A stretch of DNA of 64,000 nucleotides, taken from the IMG/VR virus record IMGVR_UViG_3300043446_005562, positions 1 to 64,000 of that record, one strand, 5' to 3'. Origin of the DNA: a virus. The notes under the pieces were generated by a model. That model made no database searches. It saw nothing but the letters and a program-made list of their open reading frames with translations, and was not told the origin of the DNA. This document shows positions 11,796-45,574 of this stretch, in pieces (position 1 is the first letter of the stretch; the number at the start of each line of letters is the position of its first letter). The position numbers and the translations under genes were made by a program.

Positions 11796-12581
11796 ATGAA
11801 ACACACAATCATTAAAGATTTTAAAGGCTGGAACCGCCTGTTTGAAGCTGAAACAGCCGGTACGGCTGGCTCAGCCGGGGTTGCCGGTACAACCGGTACA
11901 GCTGGTACTTCCGGTACTGCCGGTACCGCAGCCGCTGCTCCGCTAACCGCAATCACAGGTGCGGACGGAGCCCTAACCGCTGACGATATTAAAAAGGTGC
12001 AGGCTGTTGTCTACAATGCACCTCTCACCGACACCAAATCATGTGACGGTAAAGTTGGGCCAAACACCATTGCTAAAATCAAGGAGTTTAGAACCGCTAA
12101 CTCAATCACAGACGAAACGCTTGAGCCAACTCAAACCACAATCGGGCCAAAAACCCTTGCCAAAATTGCCGAAAAGATCGCGGCAGGCTTTACGCCCGGC
12201 GCAGCTGCAGGTTCAGCCGGCACTGCAGGTACCGCAGGCACTGTGTTTGATCAACGTAATCAAAACGACGACAAAATTGCAATGGGCATCTGCGATCAGA
12301 TCGTTGCAAAATTCAAGGAAACCGAGTTTTGGAAACCATTTAAGGGTACCTTTAACGATGATGAGTCTGCGGCCGGTATGGCCTACAACAACTGGTACAC
12401 GACCACGATCGTACCGTTGGTTAAGACGCTTAGAGCGGGCGACCCCAACATTGCAAAGCTGGAGGCGGCTGACAAATCGACCCGTGCAAAACTACAGGGC
12501 GGAACCGCAAACGATACTTCATCTTGGAGCATTGATACGCTAAACGGGCCGATGCAGTACACGGTCAACACCGACTTCTAA
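11796..12581 (+). CDS. G-X-Y-repeat protein with PG-binding-like domain and targeting leader
   Basis: Leader MKHTIIKDFKGWNRLFE|A is nearly identical to that of the next gene and ends in L-F-E. Residues about 20-50 are collagen-like G-X-Y triplets (GTAGSAGVAGTTGTAGTSG), and a second short block lies near residue 140. Residues about 60-130 (DDIKKVQAVVYNAPL, DGKVGPNTIAKIKEF) resemble a PG_binding_1 helical domain. The C-terminal part is unassigned. Late promoter directly upstream. Likely a virion-internal protein; peptidoglycan binding is inferred only from the motif. Confidence 0.68.
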   Translation: MKHTIIKDFKGWNRLFEAETAGTAGSAGVAGTTGTAGTSGTAGTAAAAPLTAITGADGALTADDIKKVQAVVYNAPLTDTKSCDGKVGPNTIAKIKEFRTANSITDETLEPTQTTIGPKTLAKIAEKIAAGFTPGAAAGSAGTAGTAGTVFDQRNQNDDKIAMGICDQIVAKFKETEFWKPFKGTFNDDESAAGMAYNNWYTTTIVPLVKTLRAGDPNIAKLEAADKSTRAKLQGGTANDTSSWSIDTLNGPMQYTVNTDF

Positions 12582-19387: not shown

Positions 19388-19582
19388 TTAAACAGACGGA
19401 TTTCCCGTCATAGTTTCATAATATTCCCAAAGCTCTTGGCAGGTTTCATACTCCTCAAGATCCTCAAGCCATTTTATAACTATAAGTATTTCTGACCAAT
19501 AGGGAGAAGCAATTCCCCGTTTTTCTAAATCTTTACACTTCTTGCGCATCTCTGCGAATTCGCCGGCCTGATCCAATGGCAT
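19388..19582 (-). CDS. Small hypothetical protein (64 aa)
   Basis: Helical, Glu/Trp-rich (LEDLEEYETCQELWEYYETM). Its start overlaps the 3' end of the deacetylase gene by 50 bp; ATG at 19549 (MRKKCKDLEKRG) would shorten the overlap. Ends exactly beside the convergent gene 18329-19387. Function unknown. Confidence 0.5.
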   Translation of the reverse strand: MPLDQAGEFAEMRKKCKDLEKRGIASPYWSEILIVIKWLEDLEEYETCQELWEYYETMTGNPSV

Positions 19583-20543
19583 TTAATTCCCCGTATTTTT
19601 GGCGAGGCTGTACCTCTATAGTATATTTAACGTCGAGGCCAATCGTTTGTCGTATGCACTCAATTAGATCCATTGTGTGTAGGCTCAATACTGAAGTATA
19701 ATCGTCATCTCGGTATCCGCCAAATAGCGCGCAAGATACGGGTAATGGTTTACCTAGAATTAGGTCCATTTCGCTGACCCAGCTCCAGAAAAAATTTGCG
19801 CATTTAACCCACCATTCAGTTGAACACTGATGTCCTAACTGATCGTCTTCGTGAGAGTCTGCGCCATGGCACCAGACAACATAGTCAATTTTACCAGATA
19901 GAATTGCGGGCTCAAGTTGAGTCTTGATAAAATTGACCAAATCTTGATAATATTCTTCGTTTGAAAATTTTGGATTAAAGTTGAAACCCGGCGGCACAGC
20001 TAAGTCCAGCTCAGGTTGAAAGGATCTGGTGTCTTCTATTGAATTACCGAAATGTCCGTCCAAATCTAAGTAACAGCCAACCTTGCCCAGTTCCCTCCAT
20101 ATTTTAACTGAGGCAATCGCCTGACCGCTAAACGTGCAAAAACCGCTACCTCCGCTTGGTCTTGCATGGTGAAAACCACTGGTTGGACTAAAGCTGATCT
20201 CAGCTGGATTTAGGATTGAGTTTTTAATTGCTGCATGCAAAGACGCGTTCGTATAGCGAACCGACTCCGCGAATTGATGATTCCAACTTAAACCGTTTGA
20301 CGAAGCTTTGGGCCCACCCTTAAAAAAGTCGTTGACGTATTTTTTAGTGTGTGCAACTAAAAAGTCAGAATTGCCAAAACGGTCAAAGACTTTAGTTATT
20401 TCAAAATGATCGAGTAAGCCCTTCTTGGCCAGATACTCGATCAAGAGCTTGGGCTTTAGAGGGGACTTACTGTAGTTTGAGTATGAGTCCTTCTCTAGCA
20501 CCTGCTTGGGATTGTAAAATGTCTTTATTTTTAAGCGTCTCAT
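19533..20543 (-). CDS. Histone-deacetylase-fold (HDAC/AcuC) deacetylase homolog
   Basis: Arginase/HDAC-fold enzyme that should remove acyl groups from an amine. Visible signature blocks: SPTSGFHHARPSGGSGFCTF (the HHA-x-GFC active-site block with the catalytic His pair), YLDLDGHFGNSIEDT (zinc-binding Asp and His of D-x-D-x-H), HGADSHEDDQLG (the second zinc Asp), and a C-terminal GGYRDDDY. All catalytic positions look intact. ATG at 20543 is preferred; 20551-20560 holds a promoter box. Substrate is unknown: host lysine-acetylated protein, polyamine, or a small molecule are all possible. Very unusual on a phage. Confidence 0.88.
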   Translation of the reverse strand: MRRLKIKTFYNPKQVLEKDSYSNYSKSPLKPKLLIEYLAKKGLLDHFEITKVFDRFGNSDFLVAHTKKYVNDFFKGGPKASSNGLSWNHQFAESVRYTNASLHAAIKNSILNPAEISFSPTSGFHHARPSGGSGFCTFSGQAIASVKIWRELGKVGCYLDLDGHFGNSIEDTRSFQPELDLAVPPGFNFNPKFSNEEYYQDLVNFIKTQLEPAILSGKIDYVVWCHGADSHEDDQLGHQCSTEWWVKCANFFWSWVSEMDLILGKPLPVSCALFGGYRDDDYTSVLSLHTMDLIECIRQTIGLDVKYTIEVQPRQKYGELNAIGSGRRIRRDAQEV

Positions 20544-20550
20544 ACTCTTA

Positions 20551-20560
20551 ATAATATACA
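20551..20560 (-). promoter_or_regulatory. GTATA-type promoter box before deacetylase gene
   Basis: Leftward TGTATATTAT, seven bases from the ATG at 20543; transcript nearly leaderless. It is preceded by the Hsp20 terminator. Confidence 0.5.
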
Positions 20561-20585
20561 AAAAAAGTCGGCCAAATGGCCGACT
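20561..20585 (-). terminator. Hairpin upstream of the deacetylase gene
   Basis: AGTCGGCC-AAAT-GGCCGACT perfect 8-bp stem; leftward it ends in TTTTTTTGTAT. It lies between the end of the Hsp20 unit (stop at 20613) and the deacetylase promoter, so it terminates transcription coming from Hsp20. Confidence 0.82.
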
Positions 20586-32285: not shown

Positions 32286-32294
32286 GTATTTATC
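32286..32294 (-). promoter_or_regulatory. Late promoter motif variant, leftward (GATAAATAC)
   Basis: Leftward GATAAATACTCTAAAG, 21 bp before the ATG at 32265; overlaps the end of the Fpg-like gene. Confidence 0.5.
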
Positions 32295-33093
32295 GCTGAA
32301 CTTCAGGTACCCAATGCGTGGTCCGACCGTCCAATGTCTCTTCACGAATAACGGTATTTCCCTTGGAATCAAGCGGTTGAGCATACACTTCAAACTCAAA
32401 TACAAACTCTCCAAGGCCTCCGCCGACTCTTTGATAATTGCGAATGCTCGCTCCGCCCTGGTCGTATGAGGTCTGCATGATCTTTTTGATCCAGCCAAAG
32501 AGCACAGTCGACTCAACCGGGTCAATGTCCTTAACTAGCCGGTGGGGTGAAATTCCAGATCGATAGAGCACTTCGCACTTGATGTAATTGCCTATGCCTG
32601 CGCACACTCTCTGATCCATCAGCACCTCTGTAATGGTTTTGTTTGGGTACTTATTGATTCTCTGATTAAATTCAATAGGGGTGAAATCTGCATCATTCAG
32701 AGGATCTCGACCAAGGCTCTTAATCTTCTTATCGAGCTCAGCCCGGTCATGAGAAAATTTAATGGTGCCGAACCTACGCTGATCCACAAAATACAGGGCC
32801 CTGGAGTTCTCGATACCTATTCCAAAATGAGAATGCGTACCGCTTTCTTCTGACCAGTATCCGCTCATGCCCAAAGTTATCCACATGGTTGCACCAGTTT
32901 CAAACTCAAGCCACATGAACTTGCCACGAACTCCACCGTCTATTACCCGGCTCGGCAAAATCACCTGGTCCAGCCCAATTGGGCGCTTCTTGAGAAACCT
33001 GCCGCTAAATACCTGTAATTGGGTTACTCTGGATTCGCCGATCTCTTTTCTAAGATCCTCGTACACACGTCTGACTTCCGGTCCTTCTGGCAT
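32290..33093 (-). CDS. Fpg/Nei-type DNA glycosylase, zincless finger
   Basis: Base-excision repair glycosylase. Catalytic N terminus MPEGPEVRRVYEDL with Pro1-Glu2 after Met removal; LDQVILPSRVIDGGVRGKFM (catalytic Lys region); helix-two-turn-helix QRVCAGIGNYIKCEVLYRSG. At the C terminus, where Fpg normally has a four-Cys zinc finger, the sequence VYAQPLDSKGNTVIREETLDGRT has no Cys, as in zincless-finger members such as NEIL1. It still ends in a basic hairpin. Related to repair of oxidised bases; leftward, opposite to the divergent gene 33131. Confidence 0.92.
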   Translation of the reverse strand: MPEGPEVRRVYEDLRKEIGESRVTQLQVFSGRFLKKRPIGLDQVILPSRVIDGGVRGKFMWLEFETGATMWITLGMSGYWSEESGTHSHFGIGIENSRALYFVDQRRFGTIKFSHDRAELDKKIKSLGRDPLNDADFTPIEFNQRINKYPNKTITEVLMDQRVCAGIGNYIKCEVLYRSGISPHRLVKDIDPVESTVLFGWIKKIMQTSYDQGGASIRNYQRVGGGLGEFVFEFEVYAQPLDSKGNTVIREETLDGRTTHWVPEVQR

Positions 33094-35878: not shown

Positions 35879-36853
35879 TTAAACTAGAGTATTTTCAAAA
35901 GCTCTTTTATCATCAAATTCCAGGTAGTTTTCAAGTAGACTATTGGAATTTTGACGATACTTAAGTACAGCTAGATCCTTGGCCTTTGCCTCGACCTCGA
36001 TGTCAAAAGTGAGTCCATAAGTATTTATTTGCTCATAGACATAATCGGCATGGGACCTAGCAATAACACTTGGATCCTCGAAAGTTTTTCGACAGCTTGA
36101 GTAATGAGTGAGAGGAGTTCGACCGTGCCAAGTGGTTGAGGCAAGGCGCAGAGCAGCCTCCTCGGTAAGATCGCCGGTATTGAAGCGATGATGATGAAAG
36201 TCAAAGGTAATGGGTGTACCGATTTTAAGATAGACCATTGAATAGAGATCGGCCACCGAGTACTGGGCAGCCTTGTCATCGTTTTCGACAACTAGCCTGG
36301 CACGTGTACTGTGCTTAAGCAGATTGAAATTTTCGCAGAACCTGGCCGCAGCAGCTTCCTTGTCGCCATAGGATCCACCTAGATGAATATTGATTGGAAA
36401 TTGATAGTCAATCGGCAAGCCCATTAGGGTCATGATTTCTGCATGCTGATCAAGATCCTTGACTGTTTTGCGAACAACCGCTGGATTTGGAGAACACAAA
36501 ACATCGAACTGGCCCGGGTGCATTGAGATACGCATGTTGTGTTTTAGCACAAACTCGCCAATCGCCTGCATGTCCTGTAAAATAAAGTCAAAGTTGGGCA
36601 GCTCGGTGATTTCGTATTCGGACATCCACGGAAAAATATCGCTGGACATGCGATACACCATAATGTTGTTTGCAAGATTCCACTCAAGTATCTTGAGAAT
36701 GTCACGTACGTTTTGATGGGCAAGCTCGCCGCAGTAGGCTGGGCCCTTTTCTTGAAAGGTACGCTTGATCATACCACGATTGGCAGTGATGCGTTGGTCG
36801 GCTAGAGACAGATTAATACAGCAATAGCCAAGTCTGACGTTAGAATTTTGCAT
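35879..36853 (-). CDS. UV-damage endonuclease (UVDE/UvsE)
   Basis: TIM-barrel endonuclease that nicks 5' to UV photoproducts. Recognisable elements: RLGYCCINLSL at the N terminus, ISMHPGQFDVL, INIHLGGSYGDK, ARLVVENDDKAAQYS and ITFDFHHHRFN, which carry the His/Glu/Asp ligands of the metal cluster. 324 residues, typical length. ATG at 36853 is preferred over a TTG 15 bp upstream. A GTATATTAA box abuts the start. Confidence 0.95.
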   Translation of the reverse strand: MQNSNVRLGYCCINLSLADQRITANRGMIKRTFQEKGPAYCGELAHQNVRDILKILEWNLANNIMVYRMSSDIFPWMSEYEITELPNFDFILQDMQAIGEFVLKHNMRISMHPGQFDVLCSPNPAVVRKTVKDLDQHAEIMTLMGLPIDYQFPINIHLGGSYGDKEAAAARFCENFNLLKHSTRARLVVENDDKAAQYSVADLYSMVYLKIGTPITFDFHHHRFNTGDLTEEAALRLASTTWHGRTPLTHYSSCRKTFEDPSVIARSHADYVYEQINTYGLTFDIEVEAKAKDLAVLKYRQNSNSLLENYLEFDDKRAFENTLV

Positions 36854-36858
36854 AGGTT

Positions 36859-36867
36859 TAATATACA
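36859..36867 (-). promoter_or_regulatory. GTATA-type promoter box before UVDE
   Basis: Leftward TTGTATATTAA, six bases from the ATG at 36853. Confidence 0.5.
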
Positions 36868-36891
36868 AAAAAGAGGACGCTAAGGTCCTCT
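36868..36891 (-). terminator. Terminator after 36897-37115
   Basis: AGAGGAC (36872-36878) pairs with GTCCTCT (36885-36891) around a 6-nt loop; leftward it ends in TTTTTTG. It separates the exonuclease/membrane unit from UVDE. Confidence 0.8.
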
Positions 36892-36896
36892 CTAGC

Positions 36897-37115
36897 TTAT
36901 TTTATTATCCAGTGCCAGAATTTCTTGTGCAGAGCTGGAATAGCTGTGCCCATTAAAGGAACCAAAATCATGGTAAAAACCAGAGTTCTGAGTAATGGAT
37001 GAAAGTTCTGAATCAATGGAAATAGCGTTATGAACATGATGTTTATGACAGGATATACGAATAGCCAGCTAATCAACATCATTTTCCAAATTTTTGGACG
37101 TTTTTGCATTGTCAA
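36897..37115 (-). CDS. Two-span membrane protein (72 aa)
   Basis: Hydrophobic spans (MMLISWLFVYPVINIMFITL; TLVFTMILVPLMGTAIPAL) with basic N terminus (MQKRPKIWK) and end (HKKFWHWIIK), so both ends cytoplasmic. Overlaps the exonuclease gene by 4 bp. Resembles small phage DUF2798-like proteins only in topology; function unknown. Confidence 0.6.
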   Translation of the reverse strand: MTMQKRPKIWKMMLISWLFVYPVINIMFITLFPLIQNFHPLLRTLVFTMILVPLMGTAIPALHKKFWHWIIK

Positions 37116-37741
37116 AAGGTTATTTTTGTGTAATCAACGGTTACTGATCTCATTACTCTAATCACGTCAATTGCGTCCTGTAGAGCATCGTGAGTTACCT
37201 CACCTTCGACTCCAGCGCGTTTCATGCACTCGGCTAAATTAGGCAAGCCCTTATCGTTGGCCCAATCCATACACAGAATTGCTGGATCAATCATGCGCTG
37301 TCTGATTTGAATAGACGACGACCAGCCGGTTAGCTTCTGTAAGAACAGCTTGTCAAAGGTTGCAAAGTTTTTACCAGCAACGGTGATTCTAACTTGGCCA
37401 GTTTTTGACTCTGGGTCTCCCAAGCCGTGGGCCTGTAACCACATGCCCAAAGACTTTGCGACAAGACCCTCGGGCAAAATATTGTACTTTTTGCGAAGCT
37501 CAGCGCGTTCTTCTTTATTGGCGCGCTCCAACTCGCCAAGCTGAGCAAGAATATCCTTGTTCATGACTAGCGCAAATGGACTGCCTGTGTACTGTGGGTG
37601 TTCAACAAGGCATTTGAATCTAGGCAGATCATTAATCGGCACAAGATTTTCAGTATCCTCAATGACTGCCCCAATCTGAATGGTTTGGCAGGTTTCCGGA
37701 TCTAGCCCAGTTGTTTCAATGTCTATTGATACGTATTTCAT
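37112..37741 (-). CDS. DnaQ-type 3'-5' exonuclease
   Basis: RNase H-fold exonuclease of the DEDD superfamily: first motif YVSIDIETTGLDP (Asp/Glu), a VAGKNFATFDKLFLQ segment containing the second-motif Asp, and EVTHDALQDAIDVIRVM, the third motif with His and Asp (DEDDh type). Intermediate insertions are short. May proofread or process DNA/RNA in phage replication. Operon with the membrane protein downstream; promoter box at 37747-37756. Confidence 0.9.
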   Translation of the reverse strand: MKYVSIDIETTGLDPETCQTIQIGAVIEDTENLVPINDLPRFKCLVEHPQYTGSPFALVMNKDILAQLGELERANKEERAELRKKYNILPEGLVAKSLGMWLQAHGLGDPESKTGQVRITVAGKNFATFDKLFLQKLTGWSSSIQIRQRMIDPAILCMDWANDKGLPNLAECMKRAGVEGEVTHDALQDAIDVIRVMRSVTVDYTKITF

Positions 37742-37746
37742 ACTTA

Positions 37747-37756
37747 ATATTATACT
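37747..37756 (-). promoter_or_regulatory. GTATAATA-type promoter box before exonuclease gene
   Basis: Leftward AGTATAATAT, five bases from the ATG at 37741, overlapping the tyrosinase stop codon. Confidence 0.55.
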
Positions 37757-39179
37757 AATGTTTTACAGTAATGGTCTCAATCTGCAAATCGCCGAGGTGT
37801 TGACCGTTGTGCTTGTAGACAAAGACTTCGTACTTTTCGCTGGCCGGCACTGTGTATTCAAATGTGAATAGAGGTCGACCGTTCTTTAGTGGACGACAGC
37901 ACCCCTTTTCGCAAGATTCGCCCTGGACCTTGTGATCGCTACCAAAGAAAGTCATGTAGCCAGCAAAGCCCTCTGACGTAAGCATTGGCCAATCCTTGTC
38001 GGCATTGACATAGACCTCATAAACTCCTCTTGGTACCTTTGTGAATGATACAGTAATTTCAATTATTGCCTTATTGACAGTCGGCGCTGACTTGGCAGGC
38101 CTAATCGTTACGGCATCAGTTATTTGATCGTTTACTCGTATTGGGCGAGTTGACTGTCCAACCACTTGAGCTTTATGAAATTTTGCAAGCTGATGATTCT
38201 CACAAGGTCTGACCTCAGTGTCGTCGTAATCATAGTCCATTTCATACAGAATATCAATGATCTGTTCTGGCGTGTACTCAACTTTAGCGCCGTTTTCATC
38301 AAAGAAAACATAGGGCCACGGTGCAGATTTCAACTCTTCAAGAGTAACCTGCTGTCCATTTCTGGAATTGGTCCATTGCTGCCAGATTCTGTCAATATTG
38401 GAATGGTGCATCCAAAAGATGGGGTCAAAACCGGCGGTCGGCACCCAACCCATCAGTCCAGTGTTTGTGACTGTGCCGGTAATTGGATTATTAAAATGTA
38501 AATTACCCGTTACGTCGTTGCCCGCTCCTATGTAGTCGTGCATTGCACCGTGAGGAGCCGCATTGATTTGCAGATTGAATGATCGATAATCCGTGCACTC
38601 AAATAGTTTACCAAGGTATAGCGCTCTCTCAATTTCGCCAGAGATTGGATAGCCTCGATTCAAAGAGTCGAACCGACAGGCCTCATACAGGCTTGAATGA
38701 GGATCTCTAAAAGTTGCCTCTAGTCGTTTATGATCTTTCAGCCCACCCGTATAACCCCAATATGGTAACGCAAAATCTTTGTAACCGGAAAGGGTTCTGA
38801 CAATTTTTTCAAAATGATGAATGTAGAGTCGGTGCCAAACTAGAAAATGAATCTTCTCCTGTCCGCCTGGCGTGTGAGTGCAATTGTCCCAAGCCTCCTT
38901 TAAATCAGCTGGAGTTTGATAGGCATCGCATAGCGGATTGGGTTGAATTGTGTCCGGTATCCAATGAATCGCGCCCTGATAGTACCAACTTACGGGATCA
39001 ATGCAATTTTTGTTACGCATTATTCGTAATGCTTTTTCCATTGCCTGAATGTGGGGCACCGCCTCTGGCGAGTGCATTTCGTGTCGAACGTATCTCTTGT
39101 TATTAGAGGTCGGCCATTGACACGAGTGTAGGGCTGCAATTAGTACAACAATCCCAAATTTAATTAACGAATTTTTCAT
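37755..39179 (-). CDS. Lipoprotein tyrosinase (type 3 copper oxidase)
   Basis: Start chosen at 39179 because it gives a lipoprotein signal MKNSLIKFGIVVLIAALHSC with lipobox L-H-S-C20. The copper sites are visible: CuA with His72 (GAIHW), His102 or His111, and His116 in FLVWHRLYIHHFE; CuB with His210 and His214 in HGAMHDYIG and His258 in FDPIFWMHHSNIDRIWQQW. The C-terminal 180 residues form a beta-rich region like the domain that caps plant/bacterial polyphenol oxidases. 474 residues. It should oxidise phenols at the cell surface. It sits between replication genes on the same strand, not beside other copper genes. I know of no established phage role for a tyrosinase. Confidence 0.93.
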   Translation of the reverse strand: MKNSLIKFGIVVLIAALHSCQWPTSNNKRYVRHEMHSPEAVPHIQAMEKALRIMRNKNCIDPVSWYYQGAIHWIPDTIQPNPLCDAYQTPADLKEAWDNCTHTPGGQEKIHFLVWHRLYIHHFEKIVRTLSGYKDFALPYWGYTGGLKDHKRLEATFRDPHSSLYEACRFDSLNRGYPISGEIERALYLGKLFECTDYRSFNLQINAAPHGAMHDYIGAGNDVTGNLHFNNPITGTVTNTGLMGWVPTAGFDPIFWMHHSNIDRIWQQWTNSRNGQQVTLEELKSAPWPYVFFDENGAKVEYTPEQIIDILYEMDYDYDDTEVRPCENHQLAKFHKAQVVGQSTRPIRVNDQITDAVTIRPAKSAPTVNKAIIEITVSFTKVPRGVYEVYVNADKDWPMLTSEGFAGYMTFFGSDHKVQGESCEKGCCRPLKNGRPLFTFEYTVPASEKYEVFVYKHNGQHLGDLQIETITVKH

Positions 39180-39192
39180 ACTGTGATATTTT

Positions 39193-39606
39193 TTAAAAAG
39201 GTAGATCATCATTGCTCCAGTCGAAATTGGTCTCGGCTTGAGGTTTTGTTTTTGTGTCAAGATCACCGAATGCGTCATCGTCAAAGTCGCCAGCATCAGC
39301 CGTTACGTTGATGTTTGAGTTCTTTTTCTGACCGCTGATTCGCCAAGCTTCAAGCGTCGTGAAGTACTTTACCGAACCTAATTTGTCGGTCCAGTCACGG
39401 CCCTTTATGTCAAATGAAACGGTTACGGTGTCGCCAACTGAGTAAGATTCCAACATATCACATTTTTCTTGCACAAGTTGGAATAGAATTTTTTGTGGGT
39501 ACTTATCTCCCACCTCAATTACGAATTCACGTTTACGGAATCCCTTATTGAAAGTTTGCGATGGAAAAATCTCAATGATGATTCCGGTTAAATCAAATTT
39601 GCTCAT
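39193..39606 (-). CDS. DUF3127 single-strand-binding-like protein
   Basis: DUF3127 hallmark sequence: FPSQTFNKGFRKREFVIEVG, KYPQKILFQLVQEKCDML and VTVSFDIKGRDW, an OB-fold. It ends in an acidic tail with DWSNDDLPF, the SSB-type tip that docks replication partners. Found mainly in Bacteroidota, which supports the host assignment. Probably the phage SSB analogue in a block with kinase, ligase and exonuclease. Confidence 0.9.
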   Translation of the reverse strand: MSKFDLTGIIIEIFPSQTFNKGFRKREFVIEVGDKYPQKILFQLVQEKCDMLESYSVGDTVTVSFDIKGRDWTDKLGSVKYFTTLEAWRISGQKKNSNINVTADAGDFDDDAFGDLDTKTKPQAETNFDWSNDDLPF

Positions 39607-39607
39607 G

Positions 39608-40090
39608 TTAAAAGTCTGGATTTGTTATTTTTATGTCGTAGTTTTGAAAGTTTGCGAAATCAAGTTCGTCTGCCTCTATGCGACGCTCGACCGAGTCACC
39701 TGGCATGTTACGGTCCAGCATACGCTGGCGTCGAATGGACTGATCAATATCCAAGAACATCACGAAACTTGAACGGCGATCCTCTTCCGAAAGATGGCTC
39801 AAGCCCTTTGGGGTCATGATGAAAACGTCGTCGTTATAGAACTGCTTAACTGTGGTTCCATAAATCCAGCCGTTGAAGTTGACCCATTCATAAAAATCTC
39901 CACTGTCTATCATGTCCTGAGCAGAGGCCGGCGTAATAAAAATGTAGTCGTGCCCGTCAACCTCACCCGGTCTTGGCGGTCTGGTTGTATAGCTTACGGC
40001 GTACTTGTAACCCCTTTTTTCTAGGGTTTTGCGCATGTGATCCTTGCCGCTTGCGCCTCGGCCAACTAAGATGATTCTGCTCTTTTTCAT
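39608..40090 (-). CDS. Guanylate kinase-like nucleotide kinase
   Basis: P-loop at the N terminus (ILVGRGASGKDHMRK; GxxGxGK variant), then the guanylate kinase GMP-binding segment YAVSYTTRPPRPGEVDGHDY (SxTTRxxRxGEVxGxDY) and ITPASAQDMIDSGDFYEWV. 160 residues, slightly shorter than cellular Gmk (about 190-205). Phosphorylates GMP or dGMP for phage DNA synthesis. One base from DUF3127 and contiguous with the ligase gene. Confidence 0.9.
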   Translation of the reverse strand: MKKSRIILVGRGASGKDHMRKTLEKRGYKYAVSYTTRPPRPGEVDGHDYIFITPASAQDMIDSGDFYEWVNFNGWIYGTTVKQFYNDDVFIMTPKGLSHLSEEDRRSSFVMFLDIDQSIRRQRMLDRNMPGDSVERRIEADELDFANFQNYDIKITNPDF

Positions 40091-41383
40091 TTAAAATTCG
40101 CGATGTGTTTCATATACTGTTTTTATAACTGGAAATCTGAGTGAATGATTTCCGTGTTGATCTGTTGTCTCTTCAAAGAATTGCACGGTAATTGTTTTAC
40201 CTAGAATATCATTTGGGTTTTGAAAATAGTGTCGACGCTGTTCAAGCGAAAAGCCTGAACCCACTCTAACCTGATTGCCCCTGTGCTGCACAAAAACGGC
40301 CTTTAGCATTTCCTCCTCCTCTTCGCGCTCGTTTACGATAACCCTGTGAGTTCCCATCTCCAAGCCAGTCACCTCATACTCGGCATCGTGCATTTTTTTG
40401 ACCTTGAGTAGATTCTTTGAGCGCTTGCCCTCATAACCCACATCCTTACGAATCATGATGCCTTCATAGCCCATTTCGGTTGCATCAGCCGCGACCTTTT
40501 CAAAATGCTCGCGATCGACTAATTTGAACTGTGGCAACGGCTCAGCAAACTGTAGGCCAGATTCAATTAAGAAACCGTTTAGCATTATCAGTCTAGCCGA
40601 AAGAGTTATCTCACTTGAGCCAGCGGTAAATTCGTCAAGCTCTAATAGATCAAACACATAGTACTTTGGGGTTTCGATTGTGTGATCCTTTTTGCCGATC
40701 TCCTTGATTATTCCCTGGAAATCTTCAAGGCCGGACTCTCGCATGATACAAACCTCGCCGTCTAAAACCTTGGATCGAAGCCCTAATTTCATGAGATCCT
40801 GACGTAAGTTATCTAGGGTTAAGAATTCCTTGCCCTGTCTAGAAAAGAACTTGATCTGACCTGCCTCATCAATTACTGTGATGCAGCGAACTCCATCCAG
40901 CTTGCGGCTTGCCCACCACATACCCGAATCAAAGTCCACCTTCTTCTCGGCAGATTCAAACTTTTCAGCTAGGGCAACTTCAAATGTTGGTACCGTGCCC
41001 GGCAGAACTGAATTGATTAGTGTAGAAGTTGCTCTAGTTTTTATGTTGCGATCTATCACATCATAGATGATGTCTGCAAATTCCTGATATTTTAAGATAA
41101 AACCATTAACTGCCTGTATTGCAGTGTGGCCAGTCACACGACGTTCATTCAGATCATCGAGCATTTCAAACAGATCTAAATAATTATCAGAAATTAGATC
41201 GGATCTCTTTTTAAGATTGGCTGAAGTAACGTGGTACTGCTTAAACGGCGTGTACGTGTACTTAAATATTTTTCGTAGAAACGGAGAATCGTATTTTAAT
41301 AAAATCTCTTTTTTGGCATTCGTCGAAGACGTTGCCTTCATCTCTTCAATGAATTCTCTAAGTTTAATAAAATCAGTTTGCAT
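40091..41383 (-). CDS. ATP-dependent DNA ligase
   Basis: Nucleotidyltransferase ligase: active-site Lys in ASRKLDGVRCITVI (K-x-D-G), motif III KVLDGEVCIM, motif IV GYEGIMIRKD and motif V NLLKVKKMHDAEYEV, followed by an OB-fold. N-terminal ~150 residues form a helical DNA-binding part as in T4 gp30. At 430 residues it is close to T4 ligase size. First gene of the ligase-Gmk-DUF3127 operon, preceded by a promoter box at 41387-41397. Confidence 0.95.
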   Translation of the reverse strand: MQTDFIKLREFIEEMKATSSTNAKKEILLKYDSPFLRKIFKYTYTPFKQYHVTSANLKKRSDLISDNYLDLFEMLDDLNERRVTGHTAIQAVNGFILKYQEFADIIYDVIDRNIKTRATSTLINSVLPGTVPTFEVALAEKFESAEKKVDFDSGMWWASRKLDGVRCITVIDEAGQIKFFSRQGKEFLTLDNLRQDLMKLGLRSKVLDGEVCIMRESGLEDFQGIIKEIGKKDHTIETPKYYVFDLLELDEFTAGSSEITLSARLIMLNGFLIESGLQFAEPLPQFKLVDREHFEKVAADATEMGYEGIMIRKDVGYEGKRSKNLLKVKKMHDAEYEVTGLEMGTHRVIVNEREEEEEMLKAVFVQHRGNQVRVGSGFSLEQRRHYFQNPNDILGKTITVQFFEETTDQHGNHSLRFPVIKTVYETHREF

Positions 41384-44449: not shown

Positions 44450-45574
44450 ATGAAATATCTATTTGAATTTGCTCAGTATTCGTCAACTGGTTCGACCGAG
44501 TCCTCATTTGGTGTGCTTGGTGATTTGGGCAAAGACTCAAAGTTTGGCGAGCAGACCGGCTATTTCAAGAGCCTAATGCAGGAGGCCCAGGCCAGGGGAA
44601 TGGATGCGTTTGTCTTTACCGAATTTAGCCCAACCGGCGTGACTGCCTGGCAACTAAACGGCGATGATTGGGCCGAGTCTACTCGAGCAATACCTGGAGT
44701 ATTTTACGATCGAAGTTTCCGAAAAAAGAATGGAGCTGGCAAAACCTCAAATACTCGGGCCCTGTGCTCGCTTGGCTCAACTCCAATCAATTCACCGGAT
44801 TTTAGAAAACTTGCGCTCGACAAACACCTGATGTACGAGAATCTTAAGAATCACGAAATTGACGGCATGGGCTTGCCACATACTCAAAAGTTTAGTGAGG
44901 ACTCGACCATTGGCTTTTTAGAAAAGTGGCCGACTGCCATTTTAAAACCCAGGTTTGGGTCAGGCGGTCAAGGCATCATAAAGATCGCAAAGACCGGCAC
45001 CGATTATTCTCTTAACTACAAGGATCATTCATTAAGCTGTCAGGCTCATGAATTGAAAAACAAGATCAATGAGATTCGTCAAAAGATGAATTCCGATAAG
45101 CGACTCTATATTATTCAGGAGTGCATTGACCTGCCCAAATACAATAACGGGGTTTTTGACGTTAGGGTGATTTATCAGAAAGGCAAGGGTGGCAGCCCGC
45201 TTAGAACGGGCATGGCGGTCAGGCTCGCAGCACCAAATAAAGTAACAGCAAATCTGCACCAAGGCGGCAGCAGAGAAACTCTTGGCACAGTATTGGGCGA
45301 GCTGTTCAATCAGGACATGAACGGCCAGATAGCTGAGTCGATTCGCAAATACTCAAAACAGATATTTGAAATTCTAGACGATCGAGTTGGTCCAATTGGC
45401 GAAGTCGGTATTGACTTTTTGATTGATCAAACTGGCAAGGTGCACCTTATTGAGGTTAATTCCGTGCCCGGCCGAAATCTATTTCATATTTTGCCGGACA
45501 TTCGCCAGACCGCAATAAAGAGACCTGTTGAATACGCACAACACCTACTTGAAAAACAAAAAAAGTCGCACTAG
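44450..45574 (+). CDS. ATP-grasp protein, YheC/YheD-like
   Basis: N-terminal region (SSFGVLGDLGKDSKFGEQTG ... LMQEAQARGMDAFVFTEF) and ATP-grasp region (WPTAILKPRFGSGGQGIIKI with the ATP-binding Lys and Gly loop; IQECIDLPKYNNGVFDVRVI; GEVGIDFLIDQTGKVHLIEV NS with metal-binding Glu/Asn) match the YheC/YheD ATP-grasp group, otherwise known from Bacillus spore-coat-associated proteins. Such enzymes ligate a carboxylate to an amine using ATP. The first residues MKYLFE|F are a poor but possible leader. Substrate unknown; could modify a peptide or wall component. Confidence 0.85.
   Translation: MKYLFEFAQYSSTGSTESSFGVLGDLGKDSKFGEQTGYFKSLMQEAQARGMDAFVFTEFSPTGVTAWQLNGDDWAESTRAIPGVFYDRSFRKKNGAGKTSNTRALCSLGSTPINSPDFRKLALDKHLMYENLKNHEIDGMGLPHTQKFSEDSTIGFLEKWPTAILKPRFGSGGQGIIKIAKTGTDYSLNYKDHSLSCQAHELKNKINEIRQKMNSDKRLYIIQECIDLPKYNNGVFDVRVIYQKGKGGSPLRTGMAVRLAAPNKVTANLHQGGSRETLGTVLGELFNQDMNGQIAESIRKYSKQIFEILDDRVGPIGEVGIDFLIDQTGKVHLIEVNSVPGRNLFHILPDIRQTAIKRPVEYAQHLLEKQKKSH

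Follow-up and report, generated by a model that had tools for sequence, protein, structure and literature searches.

The 64,000-base stretch of viral DNA analysed here (the window) carries a gene for a type-3 copper protein of the tyrosinase/polyphenol oxidase kind; the enzyme family itself is long established, and what is new is a phage-borne clade of it that is maintained by selection. The explanation that best accounts for the observations as a whole, and to which we would give about an even chance, is that T4-like jumbo phages, with hosts probably among the Bacteroidota, carry as optional cargo a type-3 copper polyphenol oxidase that is latent, anchored in the envelope and derived from the Bacteroidota, and that modifies the envelope or removes phenolics.

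The gene occupies positions 37755..39179 of the window, stop codon included, and encodes 474 aa. The interval and intact frame given by an earlier sequence-only reading were correct, and the strand, which that reading did not state, is the minus strand, on which the frame forms a single gene. The longest open reading frame extends from 37755 to 39296 (minus strand, 513 aa), its first codons overlapping the upstream gene, and the start at 39179, which yields a typical export signal, is most likely the one used. Assignment to the family is based on a match to PF00264 (E = 1.5e-25; 91 bits against a curated Pfam cut-off of 22.6), an AlphaFold model and Foldseek searches. The window is part of an IMG/VR virus contig of 252,618 bases that also encodes a terminase and a T4-type gp23 major capsid protein; the tyrosinase gene is therefore phage-encoded, as had been proposed. 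By terminase and capsid the nearest INPHARED entries are uncultured huge phages, Sphingomonas phage PAU and the Prevotella Lak phages, all of them distant (31-38% identity), and because of these relationships the host is probably a member of the Bacteroidota.

The dicopper site is complete. In an alignment of 70 sequences (15 viral and 55 cellular) all six histidine ligands are unchanged, with CuA formed by H72, H102 and H116, and CuB by H210, H214 and H259. On the minus strand, HA1 (His72, within AIHW) lies at 38964..38966, the C100-T-H102 motif with HA2 at 38874..38882, and HA3 (His116 of WHR) at 38832..38834; residues 206-214 (38538..38564) contain the waterkeeper position N206 (HB1-4), HB1 His210, G211 (HB1+1) and HB2 His214, and the 'seventh His', His258, precedes HB3 His259 at 38403..38408. 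Both C100 and His258 are likewise invariant in the 70 sequences, and the Cys of such a C-x-H motif is expected to form a Cys-His thioether (PMC8049008, PMC10526336). The motifs on which the family assignment was first proposed, WHR (H116), HGAMH (H210 and H214) and DPIFWMHHSNIDRIW (H258/H259), are all present, to which H72 and H102 are now added as further CuA ligands, and the loss of ligands in a family alignment, named in that proposal as one of the observations that would count against it, occurs in none of the 70 sequences. Between HA2 and HA3 runs a loop that exceeds its counterpart in classical tyrosinases and whose length varies among the relatives. The spacing CTH-TPGGQEKIH-FLVWHR, with Gln at the usual -9 position, might suggest that HA2 is missing, but C100-T-H102 is invariant and it is the loop that differs; H111 is unconserved, its place being taken by Asn in 18 of the cellular and 4 of the viral sequences. 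H102 is assigned as HA2 on these grounds.

The residues that bear on activity point in more than one direction. Position 206 is Asn in nine and Asp in six of the 15 viral sequences and Glu in none, so that the waterkeeper Glu of a true tyrosinase (monophenolase, EC 1.14.18.1) is replaced by Asn206 in the window protein and by Asn or Asp in every viral copy. Nearly every characterised member of the family has this Glu (PMC8049008, PMC10526336), yet it is not absolute, since the residue is Gln in AoCO, and IbCO is a catechol oxidase despite having Glu (PMC8049008). HB1+1 is Gly (G211), and HB2+1 is Asp215 in the window and Asp or Asn in 14 of the 15 viral copies; Asn or Asp at HB2+1 has been linked to monophenolase activity (PMC8049008). 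By the published criteria, then, a waterkeeper other than Glu and Gly at HB1+1 speak against hydroxylation of monophenols, and Asp or Asn at HB2+1 speaks for it, leaving tyrosine hydroxylation by the viral enzyme uncertain. We therefore regard 'tyrosinase' as a safe name for the superfamily, given the six histidines in two triads, a profile score above the cut-off and a match to the four-helix dicopper fold, and not as the name of an activity: the original designation holds for a dicopper protein of the tyrosinase family (PF00264, ligands) and does not extend to the strict monophenolase sense. With Asn or Asp in place of the waterkeeper Glu in every viral copy, the enzyme may have low activity, act only as a diphenolase or prefer an unusual substrate. 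Another proposal, for which we see an appreciable though minority chance, is that the product is not a tyrosinase but either a non-enzymatic protein that binds O2 or copper, or a dicopper enzyme of narrow substrate range such as an o-aminophenol or catechol oxidase. The altered waterkeeper, the Gly at HB1+1 and a conserved lid would suit such a protein, and the fold and CxH motif are common to mollusc haemocyanins, but the monophenolase-linked residue at HB2+1 in all but one of the viral copies counts against it, and the waterkeeper site also varies among the cellular relatives, in which it may be Glu, Asp or Asn.

The AlphaFold model computed from the alignment of 70 viral and bacterial sequences has a pLDDT of 89.9 and a pTM of 0.90, an earlier model from 11 sequences having been poorer (pLDDT 67). 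Its strands, together with the Foldseek matches, delineate a C-terminal beta-sandwich of the lid or latency type at approximately residues 337-474 (37758..38171, minus strand), with a conserved GYMTFFG motif and with G407 and F412 invariant in the 70-sequence alignment; F411 or F412 is the suspected residue that closes off the copper site. Foldseek returned matches over the full length (about 510 columns) to 8b74 (1.7e-21), aurone synthase, the tomato and apple polyphenol oxidases and a Ralstonia tyrosinase, and the modelled window protein thus appears to possess the C-terminal beta domain of a latent polyphenol oxidase.

Residues 1-20 (MKNSLIKFGIVVLIAALHSC; 39120..39179, minus strand) are predicted from the sequence and its relatives to be a signal or membrane anchor, with Cys20 as a possible site of lipid attachment. 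The lipobox of the window protein is L-H-S-C20, in which His at -2 departs from the consensus [LVI][ASTVI][GAS]C, to which those of relatives (LISC, LTAC, LVGC) conform. Among 16 viral copies compared, a Cys ends the hydrophobic stretch in ten, and the remaining six have a hydrophobic N-terminus that lacks a lipobox Cys, so that every full-length viral copy keeps either a lipobox or an N-terminal membrane anchor; export and membrane tethering look conserved, and lipidation probably less so. The lipoprotein signal proposed earlier is thus plausible as an export signal and envelope anchor, but its lipobox is non-canonical and the lipobox Cys is not general in the family. The proposed surface location fares less well. 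Bacteroidota lipoproteins are directed to the surface by a signal of the K-(D/E)2 or SDDDD type (PMC5080379), and no such signal directly follows Cys20, the mature N-terminus reading C-QWPTSNN with no acidic stretch. A location facing the periplasm seems more likely than the cell surface.

The gene lies among replication genes, as the sequence-only reading had noted. Upstream is a single-strand DNA-binding protein (SSB; DUF3127/phrog_4932; 39193..39606) and downstream a DNA polymerase-type exonuclease (RNase_T, phrog_192; 37112..37741), and synteny places a guanylate kinase (39608-40090) and an ATP-dependent DNA ligase (40091-41383) in the same operon, all on the minus strand. Because the tyrosinase gene starts only 13 nt past the SSB stop codon and runs in the same direction as these four genes, it is probably transcribed with them. 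Neither of two copper chaperone families sought in the phage record, SCO1 and HMA, was found, and copper would thus have to come from the host. Also close to the tyrosinase gene are a UV-damage endonuclease, UvdE (35879-36868, minus strand; PF03851, 2.5e-58), and a protein (32290-33093, minus strand) whose N-terminus, MPEGPEVRR, marks it as probably a formamidopyrimidine-DNA glycosylase, which together form a small DNA repair set.

Recurrence of the gene in at least 21 other viral contigs (42-66% identity), and in two further partial ones, excludes a chance occurrence. The carriers include jumbo records of 281, 299 and 476 kb, the latter two encoding gp23, which also scores above its family cut-off in three smaller carrier records. 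In five contigs from five datasets (L004, L005, L097, L098 and L099) the complete gene is flanked by the same SSB and exonuclease genes. Chimeric assembly, or a host gene misplaced among viral sequences, had been raised as a concern with the original observation; the family does come from cells, and the closest sister contigs are without the gene, but the same neighbours on both sides in contigs from five datasets, the presence of a capsid gene in carriers of up to 476 kb and the monophyly and purifying selection of the viral copies described below leave this explanation with almost no weight.

Presence of the gene varies between related phages. Among 46 contigs that were found through the ligase and show either the tyrosinase gene itself or the slot with both its flanks, some of which may represent the same virus, it is present in 8 and absent from about 38. 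The nearest relative of the window phage, the 253-kb contig L122, has a ligase 92% and an exonuclease 88% identical to those of the window and no tyrosinase gene, its exonuclease starting approximately 24 nt after the end of the SSB gene, so that the empty site is a clean one. In other contigs the same slot holds a GIY-YIG/NUMOD3 homing-type nuclease (L160:2529-3182), a DUF2452 gene (L188:3263-3634) or a gene for a 330-aa protein (L125:6918-7907), the first two of which suggest a route by which cargo moves. The tyrosinase gene is thus optional cargo of host derivation, present or absent between related phages. Elsewhere its neighbours differ, with sugar-nucleotide genes in L100 and two large genes shared by L105 and L106, and because they differ between phage lineages no partner gene names a pathway. 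A lipoprotein gene upstream of the tyrosinase gene in L110 was considered as a dedicated partner and rejected, since it belongs to a common phage family with a tyrosinase gene nearby in only 2 of 80 loci. That family (FCGASA...CPVLDGPS; L110:9164-9853 and L115:580-1263) has no Pfam or convincing PHROG match, and a scan gave 130 relatives, in viral contigs of up to 373 kb, which are 64-87% identical among the matches listed.

Between close viral copies dN/dS is 0.04-0.05, and thus not above that of the neighbouring ligase (0.07-0.09); purifying selection of this strength indicates that the protein is in use. The gene has also visibly been exchanged between phages, since L097 and L099 differ with a dS of 0.30 in the ligase and 0.99 in the tyrosinase gene. 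A maximum-likelihood tree of 45 sequences unites its 16 viral copies in a single clade (UFBoot 98, SH-aLRT 94), whose sister group (98/97) consists of lipoproteins from Flavobacterium cerinum, Emticicia and Mucilaginibacter, and a tree of 91 sequences gave the same result; both trees sample the sequences that the scans returned, and the clade assumes a root outside the viral copies. A search for the gene in related phages and in the Bacteroidota had been recommended at the outset, and it has thus located the gene in viral contigs and a sister group in Bacteroidota lipoproteins. The simplest reading of these trees is a single capture from the Bacteroidota followed by long residence in phages.

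Anchoring in the envelope, carriage as optional cargo in a slot of variable content and exchange among phages are what might be expected of a gene involved in competition between phages, and certain small lipoproteins of phages are known to block superinfection. Quinones formed in the envelope could cross-link or alter outer-membrane receptors, so that rival phages could neither attach nor inject. We consider superinfection exclusion of this kind rather unlikely, because the mature N-terminus lacks a surface-export signal of the type described in the Bacteroidota, no link to a receptor was found and, to our knowledge, the known superinfection-exclusion proteins are small and non-enzymatic. The fuller version, in which a phage-specific clade of envelope-anchored dicopper oxidases is expressed with the replication genes and remodels the envelope through quinones as an enzymatic form of superinfection exclusion, seems to us improbable.

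The other candidate benefit is protection of the infected host, whether by removal of toxic phenolics or catechols, by consumption of O2 or excess copper, or by formation of a melanin-like pigment against light or oxidants. The closest cellular relatives are ordinary chromosomal genes of the Bacteroidota, one of them directly downstream of an MbnB/TglH/ChrH (MNIO) RiPP operon, a class with copper-chelating members, the bufferins (PMC12452194), and the phage encodes a UV-damage endonuclease nearby; but only one genus shows the MNIO link, genes of a melanin pathway were not seen, and quinones are themselves toxic. As an explanation in its own right this too is unlikely, and we give exclusion and host protection about equal weight as the possible benefit to the phage. 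Of the roles suggested with the original observation, among them superinfection exclusion, detoxification and cross-linking, none is favoured over the others by these results. In Mucilaginibacter (L019:1807-5811 and L021) the closest cellular tyrosinase genes directly follow the MNIO operon, which consists of genes for a ferritin-like protein, a Cys-rich peptide, the MNIO enzyme and a DUF2063 protein.

Most likely, in our view, the product is a phenol or catechol oxidase that faces the periplasm and is made with the replication operon. In this scheme a gene captured from a Bacteroidota lipoprotein and long kept in phages would be expressed during infection with the ligase, guanylate kinase, SSB and exonuclease, and its product exported by the host Sec route and then lipidated or anchored by its N-terminus. 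Copper, supplied by the host, would be loaded outside the cytoplasm, and the C-terminal lid would hold the enzyme latent until it moves or is cut. The opened enzyme would use O2 to oxidise phenols or catechols, yielding o-quinones at the periplasmic face of the envelope; the tyrosine side chains of envelope proteins are candidate targets, as are catechol siderophores, flexirubin-type pigments and phenolics from the environment. The quinones could then attack protein and glycan groups in their vicinity, modifying the envelope of the infected cell, or, alternatively, the outcome could be removal of harmful phenolics while the phage replicates.

Several other genes in the window deserve mention. 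Some ten predicted proteins share a similar short N-terminus (MKTFSQFINEN, MKFIKDFKGFLNES, MKSFKSFDDFVNES), with gene starts at 11796, 15656, 16702, 17164, 17222, 18329, 24758, 27929, 43162 and 44342, the match in the ligase being doubtful; a loose regular expression finds it in 11 of 78 proteins, against a background of 3.9%. It resembles the sequence that targets T4 internal proteins to the capsid, and by this analogy these proteins may be packaged and injected. A histone-deacetylase-domain protein is encoded at 19533-20561 (minus strand; PF00850, 3.7e-18), and an ATP-grasp ligase of the YheC/D type at 44450-45574 (plus strand; PF14398, 1.5e-55), in the opposite direction to its flanking genes.

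No family in PHROGs matches the tyrosinase protein, three different tyrosinase queries gave no match among the 50,697 phage records of INPHARED, and a structure search of BFVD returned weak partial matches and no full-length viral fold. We found no report of a phage tyrosinase in the open-licence papers searched, although it may have been mentioned elsewhere. Recurrence across divergent jumbo phages, together with strong purifying selection, indicates that the gene does something useful, and a deep, selected viral family suggests that these phages change the chemistry of the infected cell's envelope or surroundings, which would add phenol and quinone chemistry to the known effects of phages on their hosts.

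Cuproproteins already on record as viral are phage plastocyanin and chlorovirus Cu-Zn SOD, these being the viral examples in a survey of copper proteins in marine data that does not name tyrosinase as viral (PMC9402790); they too are viral cuproprotein cargo, but with other folds and other chemistry. The best structural match, the tyrosinase of Hahella sp. CCB MM4 (8b74), is cellular and only 19% identical in that alignment, and the Ralstonia TYR (7xio) is likewise cellular. The latent plant polyphenol oxidases and aurone synthase (4z11, 6hqi and 6els; 1e-16 to 1e-18 over about 510 columns) have in common with the phage protein the catalytic domain, the C-terminal beta lid and the thioether Cys, but they are plastid enzymes with about 20% identity and a conserved Glu waterkeeper. 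Closest of all are the secreted or lipoprotein 'tyrosinase family' proteins of the Bacteroidota (Flavobacterium cerinum L018, Emticicia L020 and Mucilaginibacter L019 and L021; 46-48% identity), which have the same ligands, the same type of CTH...WHR loop and, in several cases, a lipobox; they differ in being chromosomal and outside replication operons, and whereas the waterkeeper is Glu, Asp or Asn across the wider cellular set, it is only Asn or Asp in the phages.
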